Source: a virus. Taken from it: a stretch of DNA of 64,000 nucleotides. The stretch spans positions 1-64,000 of the IMG/VR virus record IMGVR_UViG_3300017605_000212. One strand, 5' to 3'. Below, piece after piece: positions 2,392-62,885 of this stretch. The position numbers and the translations under genes were made by a program. The notes beneath the pieces were generated by a model, which saw only the letters and a list, made by a program, of their open reading frames with translations, was not told where the DNA came from and did no database searches. Position 1 is the stretch's first letter. Each line of letters starts with the position of its first letter.

Positions 2392-3072
2392 CTACTCCTT
2401 CGGTTCAGTTCTTGGCGTTGGAGGGTCAAGGTGTAGCGGCGCTGCGTCTCGCGCCCCTTCGGGCTCTGCTCGTAGCGGCGTTGCGTCTCCCTGCCCTTCG
2501 CGGTTTTGCGGTATTTCTTCTGCCGCAACAGATGGAGCAATCGCTTGTTCGAGGACGATTTTTTCGTTGTTTCCGAGGTTGATGCTGATAGTGATCTTTT
2601 CGCCGGTTCCAGCCTCAGCAGCACGTTCTCCAATGCCCGCAACCTTGGCGAATAGCTTGGCGGCTTCGACTGCTTTGTTGAGGTCTTCATCTTTGGACTG
2701 CATCCGGGCCCCGAGCGTGGGTAGCGCCTCTTCCAAGGCAACAGCGGCCTTGAGCCTCACCCTCTCCGGGGTGTTCGTAGCGGCTTCCCACTCGATTACC
2801 GATGCCTCTAGTGTGCGGCGAAAGTAAGGCATTACCTCGATAGACGCAAACTGAGACTGTGTCAACTTGTAGGCTTTGAGGATCGTGGCCTTGTTCTGCA
2901 TGTCGTACGCGAGTTCGCGTGCCAGCTTGACGATCTGGTTCTCTGTCAGCGTTACCGGCTCGGTAACAACGGGCAGGGCGGCGATTGGGTTGGTGTGCAA
3001 CGGCTCTACCGTGCAGACGCCCAGTTCAAGCGGGGCGAAGCACACGTCACAGCGGGCAGTAAGGTCGGTCAT
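2392..3072 (-). CDS. Probable terminase small subunit
   Basis: A 226-residue protein starting at ATG 3072 with a strong Shine-Dalgarno sequence (GGAGG). It is first in the leftward packaging operon, ahead of the phosphoesterase and the large terminase. It has an N-terminal CxxC pair (CDVC), a helical centre with a putative DNA-binding helix-turn-helix around residues 50-85, and a near-C-terminal GEKITISINLG segment of the kind seen in phage small terminases. The tail is Pro/Glu-rich. Residues VTEPVT are encoded by a copy of the dispersed palindrome. The call rests mainly on position and general features, not on a decisive motif. Confidence 0.6.
   Translation of the reverse strand: MTDLTARCDVCFAPLELGVCTVEPLHTNPIAALPVVTEPVTLTENQIVKLARELAYDMQNKATILKAYKLTQSQFASIEVMPYFRRTLEASVIEWEAATNTPERVRLKAAVALEEALPTLGARMQSKDEDLNKAVEAAKLFAKVAGIGERAAEAGTGEKITISINLGNNEKIVLEQAIAPSVAAEEIPQNREGQGDATPLRAEPEGARDAAPLHLDPPTPRTEPKE
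2951..2967. repeat. Dispersed palindrome copy 1
   Basis: GTTACCGGCTCGGTAAC, two 7-bp half-sites with a 3-nt spacer. It lies inside the small terminase gene and is read there as VTEPVT. It belongs to a 23-member family described under findings. Confidence 0.95.
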
Positions 3073-3168
3073 AGGGGGCCTCCGTGGCTGGGATACGCGC
3101 TAGTCGTTAATTACTCCTTAGCATGTTCCGATTACGGTGCGGCTGTCACACTATCCACCGGGACGCAC
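3073..3168. promoter_or_regulatory. Divergent intergenic region between packaging and virion operons
   Basis: A 96-nt gap between the divergent starts of the small terminase (3072, reverse) and portal (3169, forward) genes. Its centre (about 3105-3140) is less GC-rich than the flanks. Promoters for both operons are expected here from the layout. I could not pick convincing -35/-10 pairs, so the call rests on gene arrangement only. Confidence 0.4.
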
Positions 3169-5487
3169 ATGGCTGACACACTAAGACAATCCGGCGTACT
3201 ACAGGTCATTCCCCCGGCGCAGTTGGAGGCTCAGCTTCAGAAGCGGGCGGACGACGCCGCCGCAGCCGCTGCCCCGAAGCCCCCTGACATTACGCCCCTC
3301 GCTGGGTACATTCGTACACAATTTGAGATAATGCGAAACCACAGAAACACGCAGGCCGGGTGGTCGAACCGCCTGATCGGCGCGTTGCGGGTGTTCAACG
3401 GGCAATATGACCCGACCAAAATCCAAGAAATCCAGAAGATGGGCGGCAGCGAGGTGTTTGCCCGCCTGATCGCCCAGAAATGCCGCGCCGCCTCTTCGCT
3501 GCTGCGGGACATTTACCTCGGGCAAGATCGCCCGTGGGCCCTCAAGCCGCCTACGTCCCCGACCATTCCGCCTGACGTGATGCAGAACATCGACGTTCTG
3601 TTGCAGCACGAGCATACGATGGTGTCGCAGTCCCAAGGCGGGACGCCGCCCTCTGTTTCCGACGCCAAAAAGCGCCGCGACGCCCTTATGAGGAGCGCCA
3701 CCGATGCCGCCAAGAAGAAATCCGCTGCCCAGTGCCGCATCAGTGAAGACAAGATCGAAGACATACTACGCCAAGGTGGGTACTATCATGCTCTTGCCGA
3801 GTTCCTTGTGGACCTCCCCATATTCGTCTTCGGATGTATCAAGGGCCCTGTCGTTAAGATTGTGCCAGAGGTGCAATGGCCACCCGGTGGTGGTCAGCCT
3901 AATGTCGTCCAATCGCCTCGTCTTACGTGGAACCGCGTCTCGCCATTCGACATTTGGATGACCCCGGGCGTTGCCGATATTGAAAACGCCGACGTTATCG
4001 AGAAAATGCGCCTCACCCGCGCCGAACTGAACGACCTGCTGGACCTCCCGGGATACAACACCGACGAAATCCGCGCTGTTCTTGACGAATACGGGCGGGG
4101 TGGCCTCTACGACAACTGGGATACCACGGACGCTGAGCGGGCCGTGCTGGAGAGCCGCGAGAACCCGGCGTGGAACCGGTCCGCAATGATTACAATGATG
4201 GAGTTCAACGGCAATGTTCAAGGCCGTACGCTCCAAGAATATGGCCTCGCGGTCCCCGACGAACTGCGGGACTACTCCGTGCAGGCGTGGGTCATCGGGT
4301 CGCACGTTATCAAGTGTCAACTGAGCCCGAGCCCGCGCAAACGTCATCCGTATTTCATCACCTCCTTCGAGAAGGTCCCCGGCACCCCGGTCGGCAACGG
4401 CTTGACGGACCTCCTTGCCGACCTACAGGAAGTAGCCAATGCCACGTTGCGAAGTTTGGTCAACAATATCTCCATCGCCTCCGGTCCTCAGGTGGTCATC
4501 AACGACGACCGGCTCTCTCCCGAGGAAAATGGCGAGGATATGTACCCTTGGAAGCGCTGGCACACACGCAACGACCCCGTTGGGTCCAATTCACAGGTGC
4601 CCATCAGCTTCTTCATGCCGACCTCGAACGCGCAGCAGCTTATCGCCGTCTTCCAAGAGTTCGTTTCCATAGCCGACGATGTGTCGGCCATACCGAAGTA
4701 CGTAGGCGGACAAGCCAGTTCCGGTGGCGCAGGCCGTACAGCTTCGGGGCTGGCGATGCTCATGGGCAACGCCAGCAAAATTCTACAGACTGTCAGCGCG
4801 AACGTCGACCGCGATGTGGTCGAGCCGTCTCTGTTGCAGTTGACCGACATGATTATGCTCACGGACACGTCGGGCCTCCTCACGGGCGAAGAGAAAATTA
4901 CGGTCCAAGGCGTCAACGTCGCCATCCAGCGCGAGACGCTGCGGCAGCGCCAGATCGAGTTCCTGCAAGCCACGCAGAACCCGGTGGACAGCCATATCGT
5001 CGGGCTCAAGGGCCGCGCGGCCATGCTACGGTCGGTCGCCGCGACCCTCGGTATGGACGGCGAAGAAATCGTTCCGCCCGAGGAAGTCATCGAGCAGATG
5101 GACAAGGAGCAGAAGGACAAGGCGAAAAACGCGCAGCAGGGCGCTCTCGAACAGAAAGTCGAGGAGGGCATCCAAGCTGGCGTCAAGGCGGGCGTTTCCC
5201 GAATTTCGACCGAACTCACGGCGGGCGTCCTTGCCGAACGCGCCCAGTTGCCGGAAGGCAATCCGACGCACTTGGGCACACTCCCGATTGGAAACGGCAA
5301 TGTGCCCCCGGCTGCACCGCACCCGCAGGGAAATACGCCGGGTACTGACTTGCGGCAGATGGCGGCTCACGCGCAAGGTACGAAGCCAAAACGGATGACC
5401 GGTGGCGGAATGTCGCCGCAGGTCGCCAATTTGACCAGTCGTTCGAGAGGACCGGGCGCTCGCCCGATTTCTCCCGGCGTCGGTTAA
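3169..5487 (+). CDS. Portal protein (head-tail connector)
   Basis: A 772-residue portal forming the dodecameric ring at the packaging vertex. I chose ATG 3169 (MADTLRQSG). The frame is open further upstream to 2995 but would overlap the divergent small terminase gene. Its size, the Asp/Asn/Trp-rich core with AW and PYF segments, the region around residues 470-560 (SGPQVVINDDRL, then a Gly/Ser-rich ASSGGAGRTASGLAMLMG) and the charged helical, low-complexity C-terminus fit large podovirus portals. It opens the virion operon opposite the terminase genes. Identification relies on context and general resemblance. Confidence 0.85.
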   Translation: MADTLRQSGVLQVIPPAQLEAQLQKRADDAAAAAAPKPPDITPLAGYIRTQFEIMRNHRNTQAGWSNRLIGALRVFNGQYDPTKIQEIQKMGGSEVFARLIAQKCRAASSLLRDIYLGQDRPWALKPPTSPTIPPDVMQNIDVLLQHEHTMVSQSQGGTPPSVSDAKKRRDALMRSATDAAKKKSAAQCRISEDKIEDILRQGGYYHALAEFLVDLPIFVFGCIKGPVVKIVPEVQWPPGGGQPNVVQSPRLTWNRVSPFDIWMTPGVADIENADVIEKMRLTRAELNDLLDLPGYNTDEIRAVLDEYGRGGLYDNWDTTDAERAVLESRENPAWNRSAMITMMEFNGNVQGRTLQEYGLAVPDELRDYSVQAWVIGSHVIKCQLSPSPRKRHPYFITSFEKVPGTPVGNGLTDLLADLQEVANATLRSLVNNISIASGPQVVINDDRLSPEENGEDMYPWKRWHTRNDPVGSNSQVPISFFMPTSNAQQLIAVFQEFVSIADDVSAIPKYVGGQASSGGAGRTASGLAMLMGNASKILQTVSANVDRDVVEPSLLQLTDMIMLTDTSGLLTGEEKITVQGVNVAIQRETLRQRQIEFLQATQNPVDSHIVGLKGRAAMLRSVAATLGMDGEEIVPPEEVIEQMDKEQKDKAKNAQQGALEQKVEEGIQAGVKAGVSRISTELTAGVLAERAQLPEGNPTHLGTLPIGNGNVPPAAPHPQGNTPGTDLRQMAAHAQGTKPKRMTGGGMSPQVANLTSRSRGPGARPISPGVG

Positions 5488-5542
5488 ACATTTAGCAACG
5501 AGTAGTGTGTAGACACAGAGGACCAGATAGGGGTTTCACGAT

Positions 5543-10134: not shown

Positions 10135-11211
10135 ATGACGACCCAGCCCGCCCCGGCTGATCGGGTGGACCCCAATGTCCGTATGCCCGACAGCGTAAGA
10201 GCAGCCGCAGCCAAAGCCGCATCGTTTTACGAACAACCCCCAGCAGACGCGCCCGCAAGCGCGGAACCGGCAAAAGAACCGGCTGCTGAGGGCGTTACCG
10301 AACCGGTAACACCAGCGCAGCCGCCCGCCGCCGCTGCCCCTGAACCGGCGAAAGAACCGGCAGCAGCCCCCGCCGCCCCGGTCCAACCGGTTGAACCCCA
10401 ACAGCCGGAACCCACAGAGCAGGATTGGCATCACCGCTTCCTGTCCATGCAGGGGCGCTACAACGCCTCACAGAAGACCATCGGCTCCTTGCAGGAGCAG
10501 ATCGCCCAGATGGGCGACGAACTCATGCGTATGCAGGGTGCGCTTCAAGGCCAGCCGCCAACACAGGGCCAGCAGCCGGACACGCGGTATCAGAAGCTGA
10601 CCGAGAAGGATGTGCAGGAGTACGGCACCGAGTTGATCGACGTGGTGAAGCGGGCCGCAGCCGAGGTTGTTGCTCCTGAGTTGGAAAGCGTCAAGGCCGA
10701 AAATGCGGAGTTGAAACGGGAGGTTGCCTATACTGCCCGCGAGCGCCTGTTGCAGCATCTGGACACCGCGCTGCCCGAGTGGCGCACCATCAACAAGGAC
10801 CAGCGTTTCCTCCAGTGGCTCAATTTACCAAATGTTTACACTGGGGTGATAAGAAAACAGATGTTGAACCAAGCCTATCAAGCGGCTCATGCCCCTAGGG
10901 TGCTTGCGTTCTTCAAGGACTTCCTCTCAGAGGAACGTGCCACGGGTCATAGCACAACCCCGACGCAGCCAGCGGCCCCAGCGGCCCCTCGCACAGCGGC
11001 GGTCCAGTTGGAAACGCTTGCAGCCCCCGGCAAAGCTCGACCGGCCTCAGGTAACACTGACGCGCCCGCCGACAAACCAGTATTCACTCGTGCCCAGATT
11101 GCGGCGTTCTACGCGGACGTTCGCGCCCAGCGATATGCTGGACGTGACGCCGAGAAGAACCGCCTCGAACAGGAGATTTTCGCGGCGCAGCGAGAAGGGC
11201 GTGTACGTTAA
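10135..11211 (+). CDS. Scaffold-like head assembly protein
   Basis: 358 residues. The first 100 are Ala/Pro/Glu-rich and disordered with repeated EPAKEPAA segments. Residues about 100-150 are a Gln-rich helix, and about 160-210 a long coiled coil (VVAPELESVKAENAELKREV). The basic helical C-terminus ends in EQEIFAAQREGRVR. This architecture, immediately upstream of the capsid gene, is typical of phage scaffolding proteins. VTEPVT near residue 55 is encoded by a copy of the dispersed palindrome. Start ATG 10135 has CAGGAG upstream. Confidence 0.72.
   Translation: MTTQPAPADRVDPNVRMPDSVRAAAAKAASFYEQPPADAPASAEPAKEPAAEGVTEPVTPAQPPAAAAPEPAKEPAAAPAAPVQPVEPQQPEPTEQDWHHRFLSMQGRYNASQKTIGSLQEQIAQMGDELMRMQGALQGQPPTQGQQPDTRYQKLTEKDVQEYGTELIDVVKRAAAEVVAPELESVKAENAELKREVAYTARERLLQHLDTALPEWRTINKDQRFLQWLNLPNVYTGVIRKQMLNQAYQAAHAPRVLAFFKDFLSEERATGHSTTPTQPAAPAAPRTAAVQLETLAAPGKARPASGNTDAPADKPVFTRAQIAAFYADVRAQRYAGRDAEKNRLEQEIFAAQREGRVR
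10294..10310. repeat. Dispersed palindrome copy 2
   Basis: GTTACCGAACCGGTAAC inside the scaffold-like gene, read as VTEPVT. Confidence 0.95.
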
Positions 11212-15268: not shown

Positions 15269-15397
15269 ATGCCGCAGCCAGTCGGACCCACCGGACCGTT
15301 TATTGTTACCGAACCGGTAACATTTGTGGTTCATGAAGATAGGGAACACACATACTTTTACGTTCGCGCTGATGACCCAAGCGACGACGAGGACTAA
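15269..15397 (+). CDS. 42-residue protein carrying the palindrome
   Basis: ATG 15269 to TAA 15397, 2 nt after the previous gene and 2 nt before the next. It begins with [10 protein letters not shown], a mini collagen-like start, then IVTEPVTF encoded by a dispersed palindrome. It has aromatic strands and an acidic tail (DDPSDDED). Tight packing supports a real gene. It may be a reduced fibre accessory. Confidence 0.6.
15305..15321. repeat. Dispersed palindrome copy 3
   Basis: GTTACCGAACCGGTAAC, identical to copy 2, read as VTEPVT within the 42-residue gene. Confidence 0.95.
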
Positions 15398-17816: not shown

Positions 17817-17823
17817 GTGTAAC

Positions 17824-41643: not shown

Positions 41644-41660
41644 GTTACCGGACCGGTAAC
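41644..41660. repeat. Dispersed palindrome copy 10 (intercistronic)
   Basis: GTTACCGGACCGGTAAC, 2 nt after a stop codon (41663) and 18 nt before the next start (41625), just 5' of its GGAG ribosome binding site. Confidence 0.95.
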
Positions 41661-49148: not shown

Positions 49149-49342
49149 CAGAACTTTTTCGCTTTGTTCCTGCGTCTGCGCCAGTCCCTGACGAACGCCG
49201 TCGCGACCCACCATAACAGCCAGTAGATCGTGCCGACGCCCATGATCGTGATGAACACTGGCCCCGCGTTGTAGTTCACGCAGAGCCAAACGATGAAGCC
49301 CAGACAGGCCAGTCCGCAGAGGGCGAGGAAGTGGCTAATCAT
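49148..49342 (-). CDS. Small two-helix membrane protein
   Basis: 64 residues from ATG 49342. Two hydrophobic helices (about 3-20 and 26-45) and a highly basic C-terminus (RDWRRRRNKAKKF). Overlaps both neighbours. Holin-like topology but in the early operon; perhaps a host membrane modulator. Confidence 0.5.
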   Translation of the reverse strand: MISHFLALCGLACLGFIVWLCVNYNAGPVFITIMGVGTIYWLLWWVATAFVRDWRRRRNKAKKF

Positions 49343-50004: not shown

Positions 50005-50355
50005 TCATAGGTAGATAAACTTTAGACCCAGCGCCTTTGCAGTATGCCACTCAGCACTCACGCCAGTGGAGGCTTCCCAACCGGGGAGACACGCGATGGC
50101 TTCGGCATGAGCGCAAATCCACTCAAGGTCCTCACCCAGCGCCTGCCGTAAGGAGAAGTTATGCTCCTTCGCGGCCTGCTCAACACTACCAGACACATTG
50201 CCTTTCGATATATCGGTTCCGTGACGCTCCATGTCCTTCTCAGCGGGGCTGAACACTACATGGCCTTGTTCGCGTAGTTTCGCTGCCGCAACGTGGAAGG
50301 CAGGGAAATTAAACTCAGGGTATCCTCTCATAGGACCCGCAAGGTATATCCTCAC
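50005..50355 (-). CDS. DUF4406-like nucleoside 2-deoxyribosyltransferase-related protein
   Basis: 116 residues from GTG 50355, which overlaps the polymerase stop (AAGTGAGG), with GGAG upstream. Signature IYLAGPMRGYPEFNFPAF at about 3-20, and CLPGWEASTGVSAEWHTAKALG near 87-108, typical of the DUF4406/nucleoside deoxyribosyltransferase-like Rossmann fold. Likely nucleotide metabolism beside the DNA polymerase. Confidence 0.78.
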   Translation of the reverse strand: MRIYLAGPMRGYPEFNFPAFHVAAAKLREQGHVVFSPAEKDMERHGTDISKGNVSGSVEQAAKEHNFSLRQALGEDLEWICAHAEAIACLPGWEASTGVSAEWHTAKALGLKFIYL

Positions 50356-52247
50356 TTGGCTTCTCCATATGATCCACCCACACCCATGTCGGCTGTAAGC
50401 GGAATGTTTTTGGCCCACGATGGCGGGCGGACCATTTCAGTGTGAATGATTTCCTTCGCCTTGTCAACCTCACTTTCGTGGACGATAAACACGAGTTCAT
50501 CGTGCGCCTGCAATACGAATTTGTAGCCCCGGTCGGCAATGCGAAGCGCCGCGTTCATCACCACGATACGCGCCAGCGCCTGCACGATGTTCTCTAGCAG
50601 CTTCGCCCCGTAAATCTTGTGCGTGAACCGCCCGTAGTTATACAGGAGGTCGTTCGTTTCGGGGTCGACGCGCGGCGCGTCATATTGAAGCGCGAGCCCG
50701 TTCGGCAAATCGACGCGCCCCTTTGATATTGTGACCGGGCCAAAGGCTTTCGGTGGCCCCTTGCCTAGCCATGCGGTGGTCAGGAAATTGTCTAGTATAC
50801 TCCACGAGTGTTTGATGCGGTAATTCACCGTGCGATATTTCTCCACCGAGGTCTGGGCCAGTTTGCTGTCCCATCTGCTCCCGAGTGTTAATCCCTGCAT
50901 CCGTGCCGAGGTCACTACCATGCTGTCGAACTTGACCGCGCCACAGCCGTAGCCGAGACCCAGAATAGCGGTCTTACCGATGAACCTTTCAACCTTGTGC
51001 AGGGTCGGGTTTACGTTCATGTTGAAGATGTGGCTCGCCATAATCGCGTATGGGTCCAGCTTCTGGCGAAACTGCTCCAGCAGGCTGTCTTGTCCGCAAA
51101 TCCACGCCACCAGACGGGCTTCTATTTGGCCGAGGTCTGTGACGATCACCTTGTGGTGGGGCGGTGCGACGAGAGCCTTGCGAAGTTTCGACGCGCCCTT
51201 GCTCCCGCGCTCCGTCGGCATGTTCTGCATGTTCATGCCCCAGTCGCCGCTCAGCCGGTGGGTGTGCGCTCCACCGTACCGAAGTGGGACCGGCATCGTG
51301 CCGCCCGAGTAAAGACGCAAGTTACCGTCCGGTAACACGCTCCACGGAAGTTCAGAGATTTCGAGCAGCTTCTTGGCGCGGGTTTCTTCAATAGTCGATT
51401 TCAGTCCCAAACGCGCAGCGGCCAAAGCCTGCACGGAAGGGTTCTCATGTTCGAGCAAGTCCGCCATGAACCGATCCGTCTTGGCGAACGCGGGCACGGA
51501 CCTTCCGCTCGGGCTGGTTTTGTATTCAATCGGCACCCCGAAAGCCTCAAGCAGCACCTTGAATTTGTCGGCGCTCATTACATCGCCGCCCACCACGCCT
51601 GCCTTGGCGAGCAGTTCTCCCTTGTGGATGATGATCTGCTTGAGGTGGTCAGACAGCATTGGCCGGTCAATATGAAAGCGGGGTTGGACCGCGCAGCGCA
51701 GCACTAAGTCCATCACTCTTTGCTCACTGGCCGGAAACATCGGCAGGAGCCGGTCAAAGATAGCAGCGCAAAGGCCCGCGTCGTTAGCCGCGTAGTCGCA
51801 GAACTCTCTCCATAGTCCATGCGCCATGATCTGGTCGCGCCTCATTCCTATGACTTTGGGCAGCGCCCCGGTCTTGCTCCCTAGCTGTAGGTGCTTGGAC
51901 ACGGCATCCAGAGAAAAGCGTGTCAACTCGTGGCCAAGCAGCGCCCGCGCCATACCCATCGCGTCTAGCATACGCTTCGGCACAAAGCCGTAGCGGTATG
52001 CTAGGATGCAGTTGTCGAACAGGGCGTTAAACGTGACTGTGGTGGTGGTGTTGGGGTCGTATTTGGCAAGGAACCGGGGGAAGTCTGGGCCGTCAACGGT
52101 GAAGGGCGTGGGGTTGTCGTCCTCCTTCACCCCGCAGCATATGCACTCAAAGCGAGTGTCAAGAATATAGGCAGGCGGGGGCATAGCCGTTAGGCTATAC
52201 TCCCGACTGTAGTGCGTCTCAAAATCTAGTACAAGCAGCCGGTGCAT
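50352..52247 (-). CDS. Family A DNA polymerase with 3'-5' exonuclease
   Basis: 631 residues. The N-terminal exonuclease has VLDFETHY at about 5-12, TFNALFDN near 72-79 and YAANDAGLCAA near 152-162. The polymerase domain has motif A VTDLGQIEARL near 365-375, motif B-like FIGKTAILGLGYG near 415-430 and motif C QAHDELVF near 578-585. This is the compact phage PolA type without a 5' nuclease domain. Motif A has Leu-Gly where many PolA enzymes have Tyr-Ser. VLPDGN is encoded by a palindrome copy. Coupled to neighbours at both ends. Confidence 0.93.
   Translation of the reverse strand: MHRLLVLDFETHYSREYSLTAMPPPAYILDTRFECICCGVKEDDNPTPFTVDGPDFPRFLAKYDPNTTTTVTFNALFDNCILAYRYGFVPKRMLDAMGMARALLGHELTRFSLDAVSKHLQLGSKTGALPKVIGMRRDQIMAHGLWREFCDYAANDAGLCAAIFDRLLPMFPASEQRVMDLVLRCAVQPRFHIDRPMLSDHLKQIIIHKGELLAKAGVVGGDVMSADKFKVLLEAFGVPIEYKTSPSGRSVPAFAKTDRFMADLLEHENPSVQALAAARLGLKSTIEETRAKKLLEISELPWSVLPDGNLRLYSGGTMPVPLRYGGAHTHRLSGDWGMNMQNMPTERGSKGASKLRKALVAPPHHKVIVTDLGQIEARLVAWICGQDSLLEQFRQKLDPYAIMASHIFNMNVNPTLHKVERFIGKTAILGLGYGCGAVKFDSMVVTSARMQGLTLGSRWDSKLAQTSVEKYRTVNYRIKHSWSILDNFLTTAWLGKGPPKAFGPVTISKGRVDLPNGLALQYDAPRVDPETNDLLYNYGRFTHKIYGAKLLENIVQALARIVVMNAALRIADRGYKFVLQAHDELVFIVHESEVDKAKEIIHTEMVRPPSWAKNIPLTADMGVGGSYGEAK
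51321..51336. repeat. Dispersed palindrome copy 16 (short spacer)
   Basis: GTTACCGTCCGGTAAC in the DNA polymerase gene, read as LPDGN. Confidence 0.95.
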
Positions 52248-52966
52248 TAGAGAGCCAGTGTCAATGATTGCGCCCGTATTTCCACGCCGCTCTTGTGCGT
52301 GAACTTGCGGGTACTGATTTCCAGCTTCATGCCAGCCTTAGCATCATATGTCTTGTCTGGCAATAGCAGGGCACTGGCCACCGTTGCTTGCGTCTCCCGT
52401 ATCAACTCCAGCATGGGACCGATAGGTTGCTTGGGAACAACATAACGCACAGGCTCCCCGCCTTGCAGTTCCTCATGGTCAGGAGCCAACGCTCCCATCG
52501 TAGGCCAGTAATGGCGTACCGCCCCAGCCGTACAGTGGGTGTCCAGCCAGCGCATCGTCTCCAACACGCACTGGAATTGGTCGTGGATAGCCTTGACGTG
52601 ATCCACAAGGTCAACCAGTGGCTTCGCCTGCTGGTGGTTAATCTCCAGCATGGTGTCCGCCGCAGACAGCATCTTGAGGTGATCCTCGTAGTCGATGGTC
52701 AGCGTTACGTCGTCTGTCAGGTCATAGGACACCCACTTGTCGTAAAGCGGGGTAAGCCCATAGGCAGCTTTCAGCCGCTCGATAGTGTCTGCCGCGAACA
52801 GCCAAGGGATAACGTCCTTAGCCGTATAGCGGAAGTCCATCGTCGCGTAGATCACGCGCTTGCACAGCTTCTCGATGTTCTGCTCCGCAGTTGAGAAGTG
52901 CCCACCTAGGACACTGTTGCTGCTTTGCAGATGGTTGAACTTGCGGCGTCGTTTAGGCCATGCCAT
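52247..52966 (-). CDS. Hypothetical protein upstream of DNA polymerase
   Basis: 239 residues, mostly helical. Basic N-terminus (MAWPKRRRKFNHL), then regular alpha regions and a C-terminal beta stretch (KLEISTRKFTHKSGVEIRAQSLTL). The stop overlaps the polymerase start (1-nt). No motif recognised; a replisome accessory role is suggested only by position. Confidence 0.55.
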   Translation of the reverse strand: MAWPKRRRKFNHLQSSNSVLGGHFSTAEQNIEKLCKRVIYATMDFRYTAKDVIPWLFAADTIERLKAAYGLTPLYDKWVSYDLTDDVTLTIDYEDHLKMLSAADTMLEINHQQAKPLVDLVDHVKAIHDQFQCVLETMRWLDTHCTAGAVRHYWPTMGALAPDHEELQGGEPVRYVVPKQPIGPMLELIRETQATVASALLLPDKTYDAKAGMKLEISTRKFTHKSGVEIRAQSLTLAL

Positions 52967-53108
52967 TGTCGTCAGCCTCCATCTTCATTTTGAGTTCAAA
53001 GAATTTCTGGACTAGCGCCTCGTGGTCCCACGGCTTCTCCAGCCGCATGACTTGTCGGTGCGCCCAGATGTTACCGGGCCGGTAACAGGGGTGGCGGAAC
53101 TGTGACAT
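52953..53108 (-). CDS. 51-residue basic protein
   Basis: ATG 53108 (GGAG seven nt upstream) to TAA 52953, overlapping the next start by 14 nt. Begins MSQFRHPCYRPGN, where CYRPGN is encoded by a palindrome copy, followed by an amphipathic helix (ALVQKFFELKMKMEADD). Not recognised. Confidence 0.6.
   Translation of the reverse strand: MSQFRHPCYRPGNIWAHRQVMRLEKPWDHEALVQKFFELKMKMEADDNGMA
53070..53086. repeat. Dispersed palindrome copy 17
   Basis: GTTACCGGGCCGGTAAC, read as YRPGN in the 51-residue gene. Confidence 0.95.
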
Positions 53109-53139
53109 TGAAATCTCCTAATTCTGCGTTGTTTAGGTG

Positions 53140-53403
53140 TTAGCGGTCAGCCGCGACATTGCGGAGTATGTTTTTAACTTTCTCCGTCAATGCGTCCCAT
53201 TCCTCGTCACTAAGATCGAACTGAGCCATAACGAAGCTATCCTCGTCTGATTGCGACCATTCGTAAGCTTGCGGAGCGGGCTTAGTCCCCAAAATCTCAT
53301 GAATGGGGTGTTCCGGGTCGCAAGTGCAGAGGTCTGGCCAAAGCCGACAATGACGACATACGATGCCATCTGCGGTTTCGATTGTTTCGCATTTGAAAGT
53401 CAT
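53140..53403 (-). CDS. Small zinc-binding acidic protein
   Basis: 87 residues. CRHCRLWPDLCTC near 16-28 could bind zinc. The C-terminal half is acidic and helical (FDLSDEEWDALTEKVKNIL). Tight packing supports a gene. Function unknown. Confidence 0.55.
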   Translation of the reverse strand: MTFKCETIETADGIVCRHCRLWPDLCTCDPEHPIHEILGTKPAPQAYEWSQSDEDSFVMAQFDLSDEEWDALTEKVKNILRNVAADR

Positions 53404-53406
53404 GGT

Positions 53407-53559
53407 TCACGGTTTTCCGTATTTGATGATTGACTGAACTTTGGAGGAATAGAACGGGTCTTGCGGGTCTAGTTTCGCGATTTCCTCTTTAACCTCGCGC
53501 CTTGATTCTTCGTCCCATGTGCGGCGATCCATTGGGTTGGGCTGAATATAGAAACTCAT
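53407..53559 (-). CDS. 50-residue hypothetical protein
   Basis: ATG 53559 with strong GAGGAG. Sequence MSFYIQPNPMDRRTWDEESR, then a charged helix and a short basic end (SIIKYGKP). Not recognised. Confidence 0.5.
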   Translation of the reverse strand: MSFYIQPNPMDRRTWDEESRREVKEEIAKLDPQDPFYSSKVQSIIKYGKP

Positions 53560-53584
53560 GGTTTGCTCCTCGCATAGGGGACTT

Positions 53585-53650
53585 TCAGTGGTTGGTCCGG
53601 CATAGCAGCACCAGTAACACAACCACCACGACAATGGAAAGGGCCATCAT
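53585..53650 (-). CDS. 21-residue membrane micropeptide (tentative)
   Basis: ATG 53650 overlaps the stop of the gene upstream (ATGA) and TGA is at 53585. Apart from its last six residues the product is one hydrophobic helix (MMALSIVVVVVLLVLLC). The overlap start is the pattern used by proven neighbours, but length makes this uncertain. Confidence 0.4.
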   Translation of the reverse strand: MMALSIVVVVVLLVLLCRTNH

Positions 53651-53937
53651 CGTTTCACCTCGGCCAGCAGTTCTCCCGCCAGAGCCAGTACCGTGGCCTT
53701 GCGATGGTCAGGGTCCATCAGGTCCGCAATAGGTCCGGTGTATAAGCACCGGTAGGTTGCGTCCCCATGCGGGCCTATCCGTAGGGTAACGCAGTCTCGA
53801 TCTTGTGCGTCCACCCATAGGTTGACCTGCATGTCGGCGGTATGGCTCATAGCCGTCATTCGTAGCCCAGAGGAAGCGTGACCCAAGCGGTGGGCCTCTC
53901 CCCGGTTGCCTTGTACCTCTCCTAAAAATCTAGCCAT
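53647..53937 (-). CDS. Small beta-rich hypothetical protein
   Basis: 96 residues from ATG 53937 with GGAG. Central beta region (MQVNLWVDAQDRDCVTLRI), C-terminal helix (ATVLALAGELLAEVKR). Not recognised. Confidence 0.5.
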   Translation of the reverse strand: MARFLGEVQGNRGEAHRLGHASSGLRMTAMSHTADMQVNLWVDAQDRDCVTLRIGPHGDATYRCLYTGPIADLMDPDHRKATVLALAGELLAEVKR

Positions 53938-53965
53938 TCACGGCTCCTTGACTTGAGAAGGGACA

Positions 53966-54001
53966 CCGTGTTATCGGTTGCGTTACCAACCGATAACACG
54001 G
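53966..54001. repeat. 36-bp perfect inverted repeat, variant of the palindrome family
   Basis: Arms 53966-53980 and 53987-54001 are perfectly complementary over 15 bp (CCGTGTTATCGGTTG) with the 6-nt loop CGTTAC. The arms hold GTTATCG/CGATAAC, a one-base variant of the family half-site. It covers the stop codon of the 54-residue membrane protein gene. No T-run on either side. Confidence 0.85.
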
Positions 54002-54147
54002 TAAGTGGACTTGTCCAGCCGCTCGATAGGTGCGGCACTACAGTCTCGCTTGTCGATCACCTCGATCTTGGATTTGCTGGTGCCTATAGCAAACCAAATC
54101 AGAGCCAGCCAGAAGCATGGCCACCAGAAGCTGAACTTCTCATTCAT
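53983..54147 (-). CDS. 54-residue membrane protein
   Basis: ATG 54147 to TAA 53983. MNEKFSFWWPCFWLALIWFA forms one membrane segment, followed by a charged tail ending RVIGW. The stop lies inside the 36-bp inverted repeat. The start overlaps the stop of the gene upstream by 8 nt. Confidence 0.55.
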   Translation of the reverse strand: MNEKFSFWWPCFWLALIWFAIGTSKSKIEVIDKRDCSAAPIERLDKSTYRVIGW

Positions 54148-54301
54148 TCGCTTCCTCCGCTAGCTTGACCAACTCCCACAGGATTTCCTCATCCTGCTCT
54201 GTCAGGTTCCATTCCTCAGCGCCGATCAATAGCTGTAACGCCCTTGACCTTAGCACCTTGGCAATCACCTGCTTTTCCTCAGGCGTAAAGGGTCTGCTCA
54301 T
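54140..54301 (-). CDS. 53-residue acidic helical protein
   Basis: ATG 54301 (ATGA overlap) to TGA 54140. Amphipathic helices rich in Glu (FTPEEKQVIAKVL, LTEQDEEILWELVKLAEEA). Looks like a small dimerising helical protein. Not recognised. Confidence 0.55.
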   Translation of the reverse strand: MSRPFTPEEKQVIAKVLRSRALQLLIGAEEWNLTEQDEEILWELVKLAEEANE

Positions 54302-54426
54302 TTGTCCTCCTGTCCGTAGCCTGTCTCATCCTCGTAGCCAGTCGGAGCGTAGTGCGTGGCAAACGCCAGCCACACAATCCATGCCGCCGCTGATATTCCC
54401 ACCAGAATTAGCCATCCGGTTTCCAT
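54298..54426 (-). CDS. 42-residue membrane protein
   Basis: ATG 54426 with GGAG eight nt upstream, TGA 54298 overlapping the next start. One membrane helix (WLILVGISAAAWIVWLAFA), then a Tyr/Glu/Gly-rich tail. Followed by two overlapping small genes. Confidence 0.55.
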   Translation of the reverse strand: METGWLILVGISAAAWIVWLAFATHYAPTGYEDETGYGQEDK

Positions 54427-54537
54427 TAACGGCTCCAAATAGTCTGCCTGACCGACAAGTCTAGGCGCATTGGACTTGTTTCACCTCCGCACCGGAATAG
54501 TACGGGCCTCTTGTCGGGGCTCTGTAAAGGGCCAAAC

Positions 54538-54566
54538 GCGCCTGTTACCGGACCGGTAACAGGCGC
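54538..54566. repeat. Dispersed palindrome copy 18, extended to 29 bp
   Basis: The core GTTACCGGACCGGTAAC (54544-54560) is extended by GCGCCT/AGGCGC, giving 13-bp arms around a 3-nt spacer. It lies 4 nt after the stop of the VWA gene and 111 nt upstream of the 42-residue gene. It would be the strongest hairpin of the family. A second weak inverted repeat (54455-54461/54473-54479) lies in the same gap. Confidence 0.93.
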
Positions 54567-54570
54567 AATA

Positions 54571-55938
54571 TCACTCTCGGTTAATACGTTTGATGCGGAC
54601 CACCTCACCCCACGGAAATTCCTTGTCAGTGGTGGAGGCCCAGATCACCGGGAAAGCCGGTTCTTTCTTCGGGAAGGGCTCGCAGTATCCATCGGTGAAA
54701 CCCATGAACACGTCGGGCACGTCCGTCTGCTCTTTCAGCCAGTCAAAGGCCAGCATGACGCGGGTACCCCCGCCGCCGCCCACGCCACGAGACTTGATGG
54801 TCTGCAAGTCGCTTGCGTCGGCCACCTCATCCTCGTGGCATACCTTGGTGTCACCCCACAGGATCGTGATGCGCTTGGGCCGCACGTCCTCGATGATACC
54901 GGCAACCTCGGCAAGGCAACGCTCTAACTCGCCCTTGCCCATGCTGCCAGAGGTGTCACCCCACAGCACAATCCAGCCCGCACCGAAGCCGCTCCTGCCG
55001 GGGCAGTACATGTCCCGCACGATGAAGCGCCTGTCAGGCTTGCGCCAATTATAGCTGCCAGAGCCGACCTTGCGGGCCAACTCCGTGCGGATATGCTCGG
55101 TCCAATCAACCTCAGGCTCCAGTATCTCTTGGAACATGCGTTGAAGGGCACCGCCCATCTTACCTTGTGACCGCTTGTTCTCCAACTCACGGGCCACAGC
55201 TACCTCAACCTGCCACTGTTGCGAATTGCGTTGCTGCGCCTGCTGAGCGTTGCCCGTGCTCTTACCGGGCGACAGGACCATATCAAAGCCCTGCGGGTTG
55301 CTGCCGCCGCCACCGCTACCGCCCTTATTCTGGGGACGTTTCTTGAAAATCTTCTCGTAGATTTCCCACGCCCCTTCCTTGCCTTCCTTGCAGATCGCGG
55401 GGTCATAGATACCGACCTGCTTGCCGTTCAGGTCCTTCGGCATCGAGCCCATGCGACTTGCCACCAGCAGCGCGTTGATGCGGTGGTCCATCGCGGTCTG
55501 GTACTGGTCATTGTCGAAGGGCAGCGGGCCCTTGGTAGGGCATGGCACCGTGCCGCTCTTGGTCAGGCGGTGCATGGTCCGCACGTCGTCGTAGACGTTG
55601 TGTTGTATCTCGTGGATCAGGATGAACACCCGCTCTTTGAGCCCGAACTCAAAGAACGTATCGGGGTTGAGCAAGATGTTCTGGCCATCGGTAGCCGCTA
55701 TAGGCACTAGGCGGGTGAACACCGCCATGTGCCCATGTTTGTTGTCGTGATTTACGAGCAGCTTGTAGAAGATATGCCGGAAGCCCGGTGCCATCCACGC
55801 CATATAGGACATGGTGTCCGCCCAAAGCTGCTTCTGCTTGGGCGTCAAGTCCTCCGGTGTGATAGGGCCGGTCAGCTTGTCCAGTATATCTGCGATCTGC
55901 TCTGGCGTTGCGCCAGCAGGTATCGTGATCTGGGTCAT
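54571..55938 (-). CDS. VWA-domain protein with zincin-type HExxH (CobT/DUF2201-like)
   Basis: 455 residues. The N-terminal half contains a metallopeptidase-like motif HEIQH at 109-113 within a DUF2201-type domain. A Gly-rich linker lies near 207-215. The C-terminal VWA domain has MIDAS DTSGSM at 328-333 and a later TDG. Together with the MoxR-type ATPase two genes upstream, this is the MoxR-VWA (CobS/CobT-like) pair, usually a remodelling chaperone that inserts metals or activates partner proteins. Protease activity is unproven. Confidence 0.82.
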   Translation of the reverse strand: MTQITIPAGATPEQIADILDKLTGPITPEDLTPKQKQLWADTMSYMAWMAPGFRHIFYKLLVNHDNKHGHMAVFTRLVPIAATDGQNILLNPDTFFEFGLKERVFILIHEIQHNVYDDVRTMHRLTKSGTVPCPTKGPLPFDNDQYQTAMDHRINALLVASRMGSMPKDLNGKQVGIYDPAICKEGKEGAWEIYEKIFKKRPQNKGGSGGGGSNPQGFDMVLSPGKSTGNAQQAQQRNSQQWQVEVAVARELENKRSQGKMGGALQRMFQEILEPEVDWTEHIRTELARKVGSGSYNWRKPDRRFIVRDMYCPGRSGFGAGWIVLWGDTSGSMGKGELERCLAEVAGIIEDVRPKRITILWGDTKVCHEDEVADASDLQTIKSRGVGGGGGTRVMLAFDWLKEQTDVPDVFMGFTDGYCEPFPKKEPAFPVIWASTTDKEFPWGEVVRIKRINRE

Positions 55939-56240
55939 TTGTTATCCTTCATTGCGTCCAGCAGGTCTTGGCTGATAGCCGGGGCTTCGCTCGTATCCCC
56001 TGCCTCGGCCAACTCTGCATCGCCCTTGGCTACCACGTCCTCAAGGAACACAAAGTCCTCGTGTCCCGAGAAAAAGTCATCCGAGAATATGGCGATCTTG
56101 GGCTTGATGCCGTCAGCCAGTAGGGCCATGTTCGCAAACGCGCGAGTACCCAACTGCTGCATGATTTTCTTGGCAACCTCGTGCTTATCAAGGTCACCGA
56201 AGTCAACCGCTATCTCTAGCGTGTAGGTTCTCTGGGCCAT
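55935..56240 (-). CDS. Small acidic protein between VWA and MoxR genes
   Basis: 101 residues from ATG 56240 with AGGA. The frame is open to 56351, and an earlier start (MAYRLRLRRRHARM) would add an Arg-rich leader. Beta N-terminus (RTYTLEIAVDFGD), acidic C-terminal helix. Conserved position between the two partner genes suggests it is a subunit or substrate of that ATPase. Inference only. Confidence 0.55.
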   Translation of the reverse strand: MAQRTYTLEIAVDFGDLDKHEVAKKIMQQLGTRAFANMALLADGIKPKIAIFSDDFFSGHEDFVFLEDVVAKGDAELAEAGDTSEAPAISQDLLDAMKDNK

Positions 56241-56363
56241 AGTATCCTGCCTCCATACCTCTCTGGCGAGCCCTGTGTAGACCGGCCCCGTATCCTGCCC
56301 GTTCGCAATCATGCGAGCGTGTCGTCTACGGAGCCGTAACCTATAAGCCATGCGGCCCACCGC

Positions 56364-57482
56364 TCAGTTGCTCAGGCTCGCTATGAGCGACACAAGCTGG
56401 GCGTTCTTGTTCACCCAACTCTGCATCGCAGGCTCATTGATGAGCCCCTTGTAGTCCCTGCGGAGCAGGCTGCTCACGTAAGTCACAGCCATATCCTTCG
56501 GGAAGCGGTTCATATAGGTGATGCACGGGGCAAGGTCGGCCCTTTGCGTCCACCCAGCCAACTCATAGGCCATCAGCATGAGCAGGTCTGGCCGGGTCGG
56601 CACTGGTGTACCGCTCGGATCAGACACCACCTCTGCGTAGCTCGGGAGTTGGGTGCGGAACTCGATATGACCCACTAGGGATTGTGTGGCGGGCATACCG
56701 ATAGTACCAGCCAACCCCTCGATAGTGCGCGGGTCGGTCGGCACCTGTCCCTTGTTCATGTCGGCTTTGACCTGCAAGTAACGGTCAGCCGCCGTAAGAG
56801 TACGCGGGTTGCACCACGGGCCCTGCTCTTTGGGTTCGCTCTCGAACAGGAGGTCAGGATGCGTAGCCGCCCATGCCTTGGTTACAGGCATGACCTGCCA
56901 CTCTTTGCCTTGATAGCTGTACGGCTTGTCCGCAAAGTCCTCCAGCCATACGTTCACATCGCCCGTAACCTTGAGCAGAGTGCGACGGGCGATACAGAAG
57001 TCAAAGTCCTTCGTAACGCCGTAGCGGGAGCCCTTGTTGGTGAAGGCGATACGGATGCTGCCTTGCGGCAGATACCACGGTGGGGTGCCACCGTTCAGGA
57101 AGATTTCCGCGATAGCCCGCTTCACATCGGCCTCGCCCTGCCCGTACTCCTCGATGATGAGCACGAATAGGTCGTACATATAGGCGGGCTTGCCCTCCGT
57201 ACTGATGAACCACAGCGGGCAGGAAGGATCAGTCACCGTAATCATACGGCCACCAATCTCTCGCTCGCCCTTGAACTGATAGCCAATCAAGTCCGGTGGG
57301 GTCTGCGTAGCGGCGAAGATGATCCCCAACCCCACGGTCTTACCGGGATTGTCCAGCTTCGTCTGCTCGTAGATACGGAAGCCCATCTGGGACTTGCCAA
57401 GGCCCGAAGGGCTCTCGACTAGCGATGAGTTGCCCGCTCTGGCGTTCGCCAGAACTTCCGTATAGCACTCACGTAGGTTCAT
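56364..57482 (-). CDS. MoxR/CobS-type AAA+ ATPase
   Basis: 372 residues. Walker A SPSGLGKSQ at 24-32, Walker B LIIEEYGQGE near 107-116, then FTNKGSRYG-like sensor I region near 148-156, and Arg-rich sensor II region later. MoxR-type AAA+ rings partner with VWA proteins; the VWA gene lies two genes downstream. A palindrome copy lies 20 nt before the start. Likely forms a hexamer remodelling host or phage complexes. Confidence 0.85.
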   Translation of the reverse strand: MNLRECYTEVLANARAGNSSLVESPSGLGKSQMGFRIYEQTKLDNPGKTVGLGIIFAATQTPPDLIGYQFKGEREIGGRMITVTDPSCPLWFISTEGKPAYMYDLFVLIIEEYGQGEADVKRAIAEIFLNGGTPPWYLPQGSIRIAFTNKGSRYGVTKDFDFCIARRTLLKVTGDVNVWLEDFADKPYSYQGKEWQVMPVTKAWAATHPDLLFESEPKEQGPWCNPRTLTAADRYLQVKADMNKGQVPTDPRTIEGLAGTIGMPATQSLVGHIEFRTQLPSYAEVVSDPSGTPVPTRPDLLMLMAYELAGWTQRADLAPCITYMNRFPKDMAVTYVSSLLRRDYKGLINEPAMQSWVNKNAQLVSLIASLSN

Positions 57483-57502
57483 TGGTCACCTCTTGGTTGC
57501 GT

Positions 57503-57518
57503 GTTACCGGGCGGTAAC
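57503..57518. repeat. Dispersed palindrome copy 19 (intercistronic, short spacer)
   Basis: GTTACCGGGCGGTAAC, 2 nt after a stop codon (57521) and 20 nt before the MoxR start, next to its AGAGGTG ribosome binding site. Confidence 0.95.
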
Positions 57519-57520
57519 AT

Positions 57521-57754
57521 CTAGCGTCGGATCAGGTAGTACTCGCTCTGCTTGCCGGTGCGCGTCTGGATCAGGCGGACAGCACCCGCTTGATACAGCG
57601 TATAGATCGCCTCGGCCATCGTATCTAACCGCTTGTCACACAGGCGGTCCTCAAAGAGGAAGCCCGTGTGGTAGTGCAGCTTCTCGCCCTTCTTCATGCC
57701 TCTGATGAAAGACTTGAAGGTGTCGATGTTATCGGCTTCGTTAAGTACGGCCAT
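57521..57754 (-). CDS. Small winged-helix-like protein
   Basis: 77 residues from ATG 57754 with AAGGAG; the frame is open to 57832. Helices (DTFKSFIRGM, DTMAEAIYTLYQAGAV) followed by a beta wing (RLIQTRTGKQSEYYLIRR) suggest a winged helix-turn-helix, possibly a regulator. Confidence 0.5.
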   Translation of the reverse strand: MAVLNEADNIDTFKSFIRGMKKGEKLHYHTGFLFEDRLCDKRLDTMAEAIYTLYQAGAVRLIQTRTGKQSEYYLIRR

Positions 57755-57802
57755 CGGTTCACTCCTTGTCAGAACAGCGCTCCTGCTGCTCTGTGAAAGA
57801 GT

Positions 57803-57841
57803 GGTGACCGGTCGGGAGAACCACCAACCCAACCGGTCACC
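57803..57841. repeat. Intergenic 10-bp inverted repeat
   Basis: GGTGACCGGT (57803-57812) and ACCGGTCACC (57832-57841) around a 19-nt loop, in the gap 57755-57888 between two early genes. Could be an operator or RNA hairpin. No gene seen in this gap. Confidence 0.7.
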
Positions 57842-57888
57842 GTATGCGAGCGCAGGACAAGAGGCGATACCCCGCGCTCAAGCACTCA

Positions 57889-58638
57889 TTACGCGACCTT
57901 TGCCTTCGTGGTCGCGGCCTTGGCGGTAGGCAGCGGAGCCTTCGCCTTGGCAATTTCGGCCAACCGTAGGGTCAGCTTCTCGACGGCTTCCTTCACAAGG
58001 CTCGATGCGTCCTGCGCCGTGCCCTGCGATGCCTTGCCGCTAATCAGGTTCTGTAGCGACTTGCGAGCAGCCTGAATGATTTCCTCGCCAGTCGCCATGT
58101 CACCCTTGGCCTTGAAGATGAACTGCTTGAGTTCGTCCTCGGGGATGAGTTGGTCCCGCTTGACCTGCTCACGGGCAAACCGGAGCAGCGTATTGCTCGG
58201 GTCGTCCAACTGCTTCGCAAGCTGCGGCTGAGCCTTCGCCTTGCCGCGCATGGTCAACAGCGTGTTAACCGTCGCCAGAGGCTCGCCCTGTCCGCCCTTG
58301 GTCCAGCCGCCAAGCTGTGTAACCTTGCGGACACAGGCAGCAGCCTTGCGGGCGTTACCAGCCTTGTGATCGTAGATCACAGCGCCGGTCTGGCCCTTCA
58401 CCCAACGCTCGGTCAGCATGTGGGCATCGTCGATGCCAACCCCATGCTTATCGCGGGTCAGGTCGATAGCACCGTGATACCCGCCCTCGATACAGCGGTA
58501 GAGGAACTTGGACCAACTGTCCTTGCCCTTGCCGTTGTCAGCACCGAGCGTCTCGGCTTCCTTGAGCAGGCTATCAAGCGTGATGCGGTTAACCTGCGCC
58601 TGCTGGGCCGGTTGACCTGCGGTCGATTGATTGCTCAT
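57889..58638 (-). CDS. Ala/Lys-rich hypothetical early protein
   Basis: 249 residues from ATG 58638 with GGAGG. The globular N-terminal part (about 18-110) includes KDSWSKFLYRCIEGGYHGA, with basic helices after that, and the C-terminus is Ala/Lys/Pro-rich (KAKAPLPTAKAATTKAKVA), histone-like. A palindrome copy lies 21 nt before the start. Candidate DNA-binding or nucleoid protein; not recognised. Confidence 0.55.
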   Translation of the reverse strand: MSNQSTAGQPAQQAQVNRITLDSLLKEAETLGADNGKGKDSWSKFLYRCIEGGYHGAIDLTRDKHGVGIDDAHMLTERWVKGQTGAVIYDHKAGNARKAAACVRKVTQLGGWTKGGQGEPLATVNTLLTMRGKAKAQPQLAKQLDDPSNTLLRFAREQVKRDQLIPEDELKQFIFKAKGDMATGEEIIQAARKSLQNLISGKASQGTAQDASSLVKEAVEKLTLRLAEIAKAKAPLPTAKAATTKAKVA

Positions 58639-58659: not shown

Positions 58660-58675
58660 GTTACCGGTCGGTAAC
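58660..58675. repeat. Dispersed palindrome copy 20 (intercistronic, short spacer)
   Basis: GTTACCGGTCGGTAAC, identical to copy 14, 21 nt before the start at 58638 and just upstream of GGAGG. Confidence 0.95.
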
Positions 58676-60286: not shown

Positions 60287-60303
60287 GTTACCGGCTCGGT
60301 AAC
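60287..60303. repeat. Dispersed palindrome copy 21 (intercistronic)
   Basis: GTTACCGGCTCGGTAAC between two early genes: 2 nt after the stop codon at 60306 and 27 nt before the start at 60259. Confidence 0.95.
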
Positions 60304-60864: not shown

Positions 60865-60881
60865 GTTACCGGCGCGGTAAC
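60865..60881. repeat. Dispersed palindrome copy 22
   Basis: GTTACCGGCGCGGTAAC. It supplies the TAA stop codon of the gene above it on the reverse strand (LPRR-stop). Confidence 0.95.
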
Positions 60882-61174
60882 TTGCGGTCGCCCCACCGCT
60901 CAAGCCCGAGCAGCGGGGCAGGATCAGCGTAGTAGTCGCCGTCCATGTGACAGCGGCTGCGGTAGCTTCCGTCGCCCAGTTCAGCAAAGGTGGCGAGGTC
61001 GAGTACGTGGTGCTGCTGGGAGTTGACCGGAGCCTGTATCTCATCGAAGCTGTGGGCTCGGTCGGGGTGGATAAGGGGCTTCTTGTACTGGAGCATGGTG
61101 GTGTGTCCACTGTTGTGGTTCATTCGTCGCCCAACTACCGCGCCGAACAAAACGGGCGCTTTGGGGCTGCACAT
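60866..61174 (-). CDS. First gene of the leftward early operon (hypothetical, start uncertain)
   Basis: 102 residues if ATG 61174 is used. Other starts are GTG 61264 (good AGGAAG ribosome binding site) or ATG 61123. His/Asp-rich (HHVLDLATFAELGDGSYRSR, HMDGDYYADPAPLLG). No family recognised. The stop lies in a palindrome copy. It sits next to the iteron block, so it may be an immediate-early gene. Confidence 0.45.
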   Translation of the reverse strand: MCSPKAPVLFGAVVGRRMNHNSGHTTMLQYKKPLIHPDRAHSFDEIQAPVNSQQHHVLDLATFAELGDGSYRSRCHMDGDYYADPAPLLGLERWGDRKLPRR

Positions 61175-62145: not shown

Positions 62146-62155
62146 CCTACACTAT

Positions 62156-62181: not shown

Positions 62182-62186
62182 CTTAG

Positions 62187-62224
62187 CCTTGGCCTAGTGT
62201 CCCCACCGGGGACGCTGGCCAAGG
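62187..62224 (+). ncRNA. Long bulged hairpin, candidate small RNA start
   Basis: CCTTGGCC (62187-62194) pairs with GGCCAAGG (62217-62224), and inner GTCCCC/GGGGAC adds 6 bp, with three more pairs between and one bulge. Downstream at 62406 is a good terminator. The 62182-62450 stretch has no convincing ORF, so a non-coding transcript ending near 62440 is possible. Confidence 0.4.
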
Positions 62225-62405
62225 CCATTGGCCTCCGCGAAGAGGAGACTGTTCCAGAAATATGTAGGACCAAAAAAGGGACCGTTAACCATTTAATAAG
62301 GTATCACGGTGACACTCCCCAGTCTGGACGGGAAGTGGTACCGAAAGGGTCCGCCCTCAACAAGACCTCGTAGGGAAATGGGCGAGGTAACCCTCAGTCC
62401 AGCGA

Positions 62406-62439
62406 CCCCGGCACGGATGTACTGCCGGGGTAACTTTTT
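62406..62439 (+). terminator. Intrinsic terminator
   Basis: CCCCGGCA (62406-62413) pairs with TGCCGGGG (62423-62430), 9-nt loop, TTTTT at 62435-62439. Twelve nt before the next ATG. Confidence 0.82.
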
Positions 62440-62450
62440 GCGGGGGGCAC

Positions 62451-62885
62451 ATGTACTACCTTGTTACCGGAGCGGTAACGCTGGCTCTCCTCGCGGGGGT
62501 CATGAGCGCAGGCGCGAAGACATATGGCGAAAGCCAGTATGGCGGTGCAGACGAGAGCGAGTACTACGCTACGCTTATGCAACCTGATTACCCTTCTACT
62601 TCGTGTTGCGGCGAGGCCGACGTTTACTATGCCGACGAGCAGGAAGAGGGGCCGGACGGCACCGTGATCGCGATCATCACCGACACGCGCCCCGACGAGC
62701 GGACCCTCCCCGACGGCAGGGTCATCAAGCGGCAGCATATTCCGGTGGGTACTAAGGTGTTGGTCCCCAAGTACAAAATGCGGAAACACTACACGCCCAA
62801 CCCCACCGGCCACACCATCATCTTTTTGGCGGGGACCGAGGGGGGTTGGATCGTGTACTGCTACGAGCCTATGCCGCTACTTTAG
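62451..62885 (+). CDS. Exported hypothetical protein
   Basis: 144 residues from ATG 62451 behind GGGGGG. Signal peptide-like start (MYYLVTGAVTLALLAGVMSAGA) in which VTGAVT is encoded by a palindrome copy, probably cleaved after AGA. The mature part has Cys-Cys (SCCGEA) and an acidic Tyr-rich region. Periplasmic or membrane-associated. Overlaps the converging reverse gene by 17 nt. Confidence 0.6.
   Translation: MYYLVTGAVTLALLAGVMSAGAKTYGESQYGGADESEYYATLMQPDYPSTSCCGEADVYYADEQEEGPDGTVIAIITDTRPDERTLPDGRVIKRQHIPVGTKVLVPKYKMRKHYTPNPTGHTIIFLAGTEGGWIVYCYEPMPLL
62463..62479. repeat. Dispersed palindrome copy 23
   Basis: GTTACCGGAGCGGTAAC, 9 nt after the ATG codon of the exported-protein gene, read as VTGAVT. 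Confidence 0.95.

Follow-up and report, generated by a model that had tools for sequence, protein, structure and literature searches.

What a dispersed family of short palindromes does in a phage genome is the question raised by IMGVR_UViG_3300017605_000212, an IMG/VR virus record of 66,172 bp whose positions 1–64,000 form the window analysed here. The sequence GTTACCG-N2/3-CGGTAAC was found as an exact match at all 23 window coordinates listed in the original prediction. Both 7-nt half-sites are invariant, and the centre has three bases in 17 copies (7-N3-7) and two in the other six (7-N2-7). The explanation favoured here, to which about an even chance is given, is that these palindromes are sites bound by a phage-encoded protein, produced from a mobile block of early genes, that acts over the whole genome and marks or organises the phage DNA.

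The family stands far above chance expectation, as had been predicted. Seventeen copies of the 17-bp form were observed, against none in 100 dinucleotide-preserving shuffles, and the reversed pattern, used as a control, had no match in the whole record. The phage therefore carries a real, non-random family of sites. Extending the search past the window end, to the rest of the same record, revealed a 24th copy at 64363–64379. No copy with a single mismatch among the 14 fixed bases was found with spacers of 2–3 nt, and just two copies had two mismatches; at these spacings the site set is thus sharply all-or-none. The half-site extends weakly to CGGTAACA, with A as the next base in 31 of the 46 halves. 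Being perfect dyads, the sites have no orientation. All 3-bp centres in the window begin with a purine, while YNR-like centres (pyrimidine, any base, purine) are favoured in relatives.

The window derives from a podovirus-like soil phage whose relatives include the Rhizobium phages RHph_TM27A and TM29. Its virion genes run rightward and its early half runs leftward, the latter including genes for a DUF927 protein, an SNF2 helicase, DNA polymerase A and nucleases. Among cultured phages, the closest are RHph_TM27A, TM27B, TM29 and TM3_14A of Rhizobium, with a similar gene order and identities of 67% for the capsid and 57% for the portal protein. Alignment of the capsid protein yielded over 500 relatives in IMG/VR; 80 of these were retained, and 23 of the fetched records were taken as whole or large contigs for comparison; a scan for close relatives with the internal virion protein as query gave no matches. 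De novo dyad searches, used to find the dominant dyads of the relatives, showed near-complete genomes to be of two kinds: those with their own dispersed palindrome family (8–46 copies) and seven with none (G005, G008, G012, G013, G015, G016 and G017). In most relatives the dominant dispersed dyad followed a common plan with a half-site that differed by genome. The half-site was TTACCG in five of them (G001, G002, G003, G009 and G010), (T)TACTG in G004, TTACGG in G006 and GTTACAG in G007, and with a wider gap TTACC in G018 and TTACT in G019. RHph_TM27A lacks the exact window palindrome and has some 46 TTAC-type sites, mostly GTTACC-N5/6-GGTAAC. Related phages, in which the original prediction had proposed to look for the pattern, thus do carry sites, though with diverged half-sites and not with the window's own sequence, so that the family is wider than that single sequence.

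The strong dyads of the seven site-free relatives were mainly CCGG or GGCC repeats, located in collagen-like gene regions where examined; in one of these genomes (G017), six TTAC-N6-GTAA matches had no common half-site beyond that core. The ACCGG-N5-CCGGT dyads of G005, G012 and G013 were considered as a further family and rejected, since they cluster in collagen-like repeat regions. Collagen-like repeat genes, both in the window (15400–18774) and in relatives, contain many CCGG/GGCC dyads with spacings of 5 and 14 that mimic the palindrome family.

Clustering of all predicted proteins identified the gene families tied to the sites. Five of these make up a block in the early half of the window (52247–58638), all encoded on the minus strand: a 239-amino acid (aa) protein with no fold assignment (52247–52966), a DUF2201 metallopeptidase-like protein with a VWA domain related to N4 gp25 (54571–55938), a 101-aa protein (55935–56240), an AAA+ ATPase of phrog_1297 related to N4 gp24 (56364–57482), and a 249-aa protein of no named family (57889–58638). 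Each family was present in 9–10 of the 11 palindrome-bearing near-complete relatives, with gaps mostly at contig ends, and in none of the seven palindrome-free ones. In trees of the portal, DNA polymerase and SNF2 proteins the two kinds of phage were interspersed, with 5–6 label changes, near the shuffled mean (three in the capsid tree); joint gain or loss of the sites and the block therefore appears to have happened several times. With the ATPase alone as query, 38 loci were recovered; a strong dyad family was present at 33 of them, among them loci with no more than 28–35% ATPase identity. The half-sites at these loci included ACCT-N4-AGGT, TACTC-N3-GAGTA and TTACGC-N5-GCGTAA. The five exceptions were short loci or had only 1–5 sites, and the signal at locus L317 was weaker. 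The ATPase and VWA genes (54571–57482) form a pair of the N4 gp24/gp25 type, though the capsid and portal matches are not N4-like.

Since co-occurrence is a correlation, the sites might instead be recognised by a host protein, or by a phage protein encoded outside the five-gene block, with the block merely linked to them. A regulator gene (64446–65063; 205 aa, weak Trans_reg_C match) does lie directly after a site, 67 bp downstream of the palindrome. It was the first candidate considered for the binder and was rejected because palindrome-free as well as palindrome-bearing relatives have it. A host recogniser, for its part, would not readily explain half-site differences among phages with near-identical capsid proteins. 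An origin of the recogniser outside the block is thus regarded as rather unlikely.

Conservation of the sites followed the presence of the block. Where relatives of the same half-site class were compared at matching positions, the site was intact in 314 of 602 comparisons, against 0 of 188 in relatives lacking the block, these position-by-position comparisons sharing ancestry and not being independent. In the block-less relatives, site identity equalled that of the flanks (0.57 versus 0.56). Purifying selection on the sites is seen only in the presence of the block. In relatives of another half-site class, the two arms changed together. In G006, both arms had changed from C to G in all 16 recognisable sites (eight positions). 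In G004, 11 cases showed a change in both arms and two a change in one, while most of the 10 cases scored as kept seem to trace to a single position that does not qualify as a site. Examples of the change at one position are TTACCGTGGCGGTAA, TTACGGTGGCCGTAA and TTACTGTGGCAGTAG. This coordinated change is tied to the half-site class of the genome.

These comparisons also bear on whether the palindromes are mobile elements or neutral repeats of the repetitive extragenic palindrome (REP), miniature inverted-repeat transposable element (MITE) or HIP1-like type, an idea raised in the original prediction and one that would account for the many identical copies. In the site-free relatives, however, about half of the matching positions aligned gapless through the site, which indicates gain and decay by point change and not by the insertion of 16–17 bp units. 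Given also that purifying selection was found only with the block, and that both arms switch jointly at fixed positions, mobile or neutral repeats are considered extremely unlikely.

Perfect arms, a loop of 2–6 bases and tolerance of varied gap lengths might equally describe RNA or DNA hairpins, such as boxB-like, terminator or priming signals. A pairing test of the flanking arm bases was made over 422 sites. The flanks gave no sign of compensatory pairing at −4 to −1 and +2, and at +3 complementarity fell below expectation, with equal halves rarer there than expected (139 versus 175); a small pairing excess at +1 may stem from a mixture of true and chance sites. Outside the core the arms vary independently, which argues against a hairpin. 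A hairpin function was rejected on this test and is held to be very improbable. The palindromes would instead be binding sites in double-stranded DNA, each 6–7 bp arm being read by its own protein subunit or domain.

Among the block products, sequence comparisons point to the 249-aa protein as most likely the binder. It is the leading candidate because N4-like phages have the ATPase and VWA genes without either the palindromes or the 249-aa gene. In the first 50 kb of four such genomes (Pollock, VBP32, RHph_X2_28B and YH6), the ATPase was present in all four and a detectable VWA gene in three, while dispersed dyads and the 249-aa gene were found in none. The protein is likewise present in palindrome phages and absent from palindrome-free relatives, and almost all site-bearing loci with sufficient upstream sequence contain its family. 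A pattern scan of 84,980 bacterial and archaeal genomes did not find it. Its structure model is all-helical, with a predicted local distance difference test score (pLDDT) of 88, and matched only two predicted structures, both viral. Identity of the 249-aa protein was 52% within a half-site class and 39% across classes, with the largest extra divergence between classes at the start of helix 94–110 (74% within, 45% across). The 239-aa protein was rejected as the binder: it showed no within-class conservation (27% versus 25%), and its hidden Markov model (HMM) missed TM27A and several distant palindrome phages. A fold search with the 239-aa model gave no useful PDB match.

The layout of the sites bears on what their occupation might do. 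Called genes contain around two thirds of the 24 copies. Except where 16 bp is stated, the copies in the window are 17 bp long; their central bases are given in brackets. Those within genes or open reading frames (ORFs) are at 2951–2967 (GCT; called ORF 2392–3072), 10294–10310 (AAC; gene 10135–11211), 20021–20037 (AGC; gene 19436–20425), 29151–29167 (GCT; gene 28137–30698), 32324–32340 and 33431–33447 (both AGC; gene 30704–36574), 36544–36559 (16 bp, AC; 3′ end of the same gene), 40799–40815 (GCG; gene 40612–41625), 43519–43534 (16 bp, CC; gene 42064–43620), 44205–44221 (GCG; gene 43907–44584), 47856–47871 (16 bp, GT; gene 47825–48361), 49713–49729 (ATC; gene 49335–49796), 51321–51336 (16 bp, TC; DNA polymerase A gene 50352–52130), 53070–53086 (GGC; small ORF 52953–53108), 60865–60881 (GCG; overlapping the 3′ end of ORF 60866–61123) and 62463–62479 (GAG; ORF 62451–62885). 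Intergenic copies lie at 15305–15321 (AAC), at 41644–41660 (GAC), 19 bp before the start of 40612–41625, at 46206–46222 (GCT), 24 bp before a start, at 54544–54560 (GAC), directly after the VWA gene, at 57503–57518 (16 bp, GG), 21 bp before the ATPase gene, at 58660–58675 (16 bp, GT), 22 bp before the 249-aa gene, and at 60287–60303 (GCT), 28 bp before a start. With most copies within genes and the intergenic window copies 19–118 bp before the next start, the family is not start-located in the manner of the Cluster K start-associated sequences. In TM27A, sites at 8332, 20436 and 33749 lie 2–4 bp 5′ of a start codon, overlapping the likely ribosome-binding site.

The 16 early-region sites have a mean spacing of 1,571 bp with a coefficient of variation (CV) of 0.36, an evenness reached in about 1 in 10,000 random placements (P 0.0001). 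In most genomes the spacing exceeded random placement in evenness, and all twelve leaned in this direction, several of them not being significant alone; among relatives, the CV was 0.53 in G007 (P 0.003) and 0.45 in G023 (P 0.003). Sites that are even, genome-wide and free of orientation, and that lie both within and between genes, speak for a role that concerns the DNA molecule as a whole, such as marking, organising or protecting it.

The main rival to this explanation, a serious but doubtful one, is a stoperator-like control: by halting or terminating RNA polymerase at many points, the bound protein would silence early transcription late in infection, in the way that Cluster A mycobacteriophage repressors act. 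Stoperators were a sensible choice of nearest idea in the original prediction. As noted there, the early region is denser in sites (15 at 40.8–62.5 kb against eight before 40.8 kb); intergenic copies are enriched, often lying a few bases past a stop codon and 15–28 bp before the next start, and the specificity differs between phages. Such control is, however, harder to reconcile with palindromic sites that have no orientation, with the many copies in late genes and deep in coding sequence, or with the even coverage of the whole genome in several relatives. Neither an integrase nor a repressor family was found among the subset of proteins scanned, and the scan of bacterial genomes yielded no 249-aa protein; there is thus no sign of lysogeny.

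Sequence-specific palindromes could also be centromere-like sites, of the parS or RepABC type, serving partition or copy control of an extrachromosomal prophage. Rhizobium RepABC plasmids have 16-bp palindromic parS sites with GTT at the start and AAC at the end, a likeness that counts for this alternative. No ParA or ParB family was found, however, among the subset of proteins scanned, the sites are evenly dispersed over the whole record and not clustered, and the absence of the 249-aa protein from the bacterial genomes scanned again tells against a prophage state. Partition is considered distinctly unlikely.

Under the favoured explanation, a binder encoded in the mobile block, most likely the 249-aa protein, would be expressed early and would occupy sites every 1–3 kb over the whole phage DNA. 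Early expression together with such spacing would mean that it acts on the genome as a whole and not on single promoters. The bound protein would mark or organise the phage's own DNA, and the AAA+/VWA pair of the block may load or remodel it. A bolder version can be put forward tentatively: the block might be a transferable module in which a new all-helical DNA-binding family is joined by an AAA+/VWA pair for remodelling. This module would coat or partition the genome at even, self-specific sites, and its specificity would have been re-coded genome-wide repeatedly, dozens of sites changing in step, so that every phage lineage marks its DNA as its own.

Several observations weigh against the favoured explanation. 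The 249-aa protein matches no Pfam or PHROG family, and its model had no DNA-binding fold match in the PDB (best E 0.72). The 101-aa protein, the second candidate binder, tracks the half-site classes as well as or better than the 249-aa protein does. Only three class-switched lineages were compared. The roughly four-fold enrichment of intergenic copies (8 versus 1.9 expected) also fits transcription control, and even spacing is not clear for the late region of the window, nor for every relative. Finally, window sites are seldom at the positions of relatives' sites: six were alignable, and three of these six had any orthologous site, so that the window's own site set has turned over. The original prediction held that a lack of conservation in close relatives would speak against the family; conservation was found for the family, while the window's own positions are poorly conserved.

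The closest precedent, one not named in the original prediction, is in the Cluster O mycobacteriophages Corndog and Catdawg, with some 34 dispersed copies of the 17-bp dyad TGTTCGG-NNN-CCGAACA, denser in the early region and of unexplained function (PMC4351075). Both families have invariant 7-bp arms, a variable 3-bp centre and tens of copies, partly in genes, and in both the sites are denser in the leftward early region of an apparently non-temperate phage; the sequence and the host phylum, however, differ. In the 50 kb of Catdawg searched, 31 dyad copies were found, clustered rather than even (CV 1.1), and HMMs of the five block proteins had no match. Neither family-wide switching of specificity nor a gene block is reported for Cluster O (PMC4351075). 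The likeness therefore lies in design, not in common genes. Cluster A stoperators are likewise many dispersed copies of a single phage-specific binding site, but they are asymmetric, follow the direction of transcription and bind a lysogeny repressor that acts as a monomer (PMC4351075; PMC9283540), whereas the window sites, as dyads, have no orientation, and no product of a lysogeny gene was found among the proteins scanned. Microbacterium Cluster EG phages have 18-bp inverted repeats, also with a 2-bp centre, 14–22 bp before start codons (PMC7302621); these, however, number only 8–10 copies and occupy short stretches between genes at the right end of the genome. The gp24/gp25 ATPase and VWA/metallopeptidase pair of N4 (Schitoviridae) is homologous to the products of 56364–57482 and 54571–55938, but is found in N4-like genomes without the dyads or the 249-aa gene, as described above. 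The matS sites of MatP, which organises a large DNA domain, are palindromes with an RNY centre, and the purine-first centres of the window resemble them; their sequence differs, relatives favour YNR-like centres, and no MatP homologue was detected.

Dyads with this architecture were reported from mycobacteriophages in 2015 without an explanation, and the same plan is now seen in an unrelated phage clade. For comparison, this clade offers dozens of relatives, a gene block whose presence follows that of the sites, and lineages whose entire set has switched specificity. The puzzle thereby becomes testable: the candidate proteins are few, the site variants are defined, and palindrome-free relatives serve as natural controls. 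It would also provide a rare case in which the joint change of a DNA-binding protein and dozens of its sites is on record.

Three further annotations were noted. The TM27A protein EVB29_077, labelled 'putative integrase', matches the 1008-aa product of window gene 37570–40596; DUF927 is the only Pfam domain of the latter, and the label looks like a misannotation. Gene 49335–49796 encodes a dATP/dGTP diphosphohydrolase N-terminal domain (PF18909). A 367-aa protein encoded at 1286–2389 matches phrog_284 (exonuclease) and, like the block, occurs mainly in palindrome-bearing relatives.

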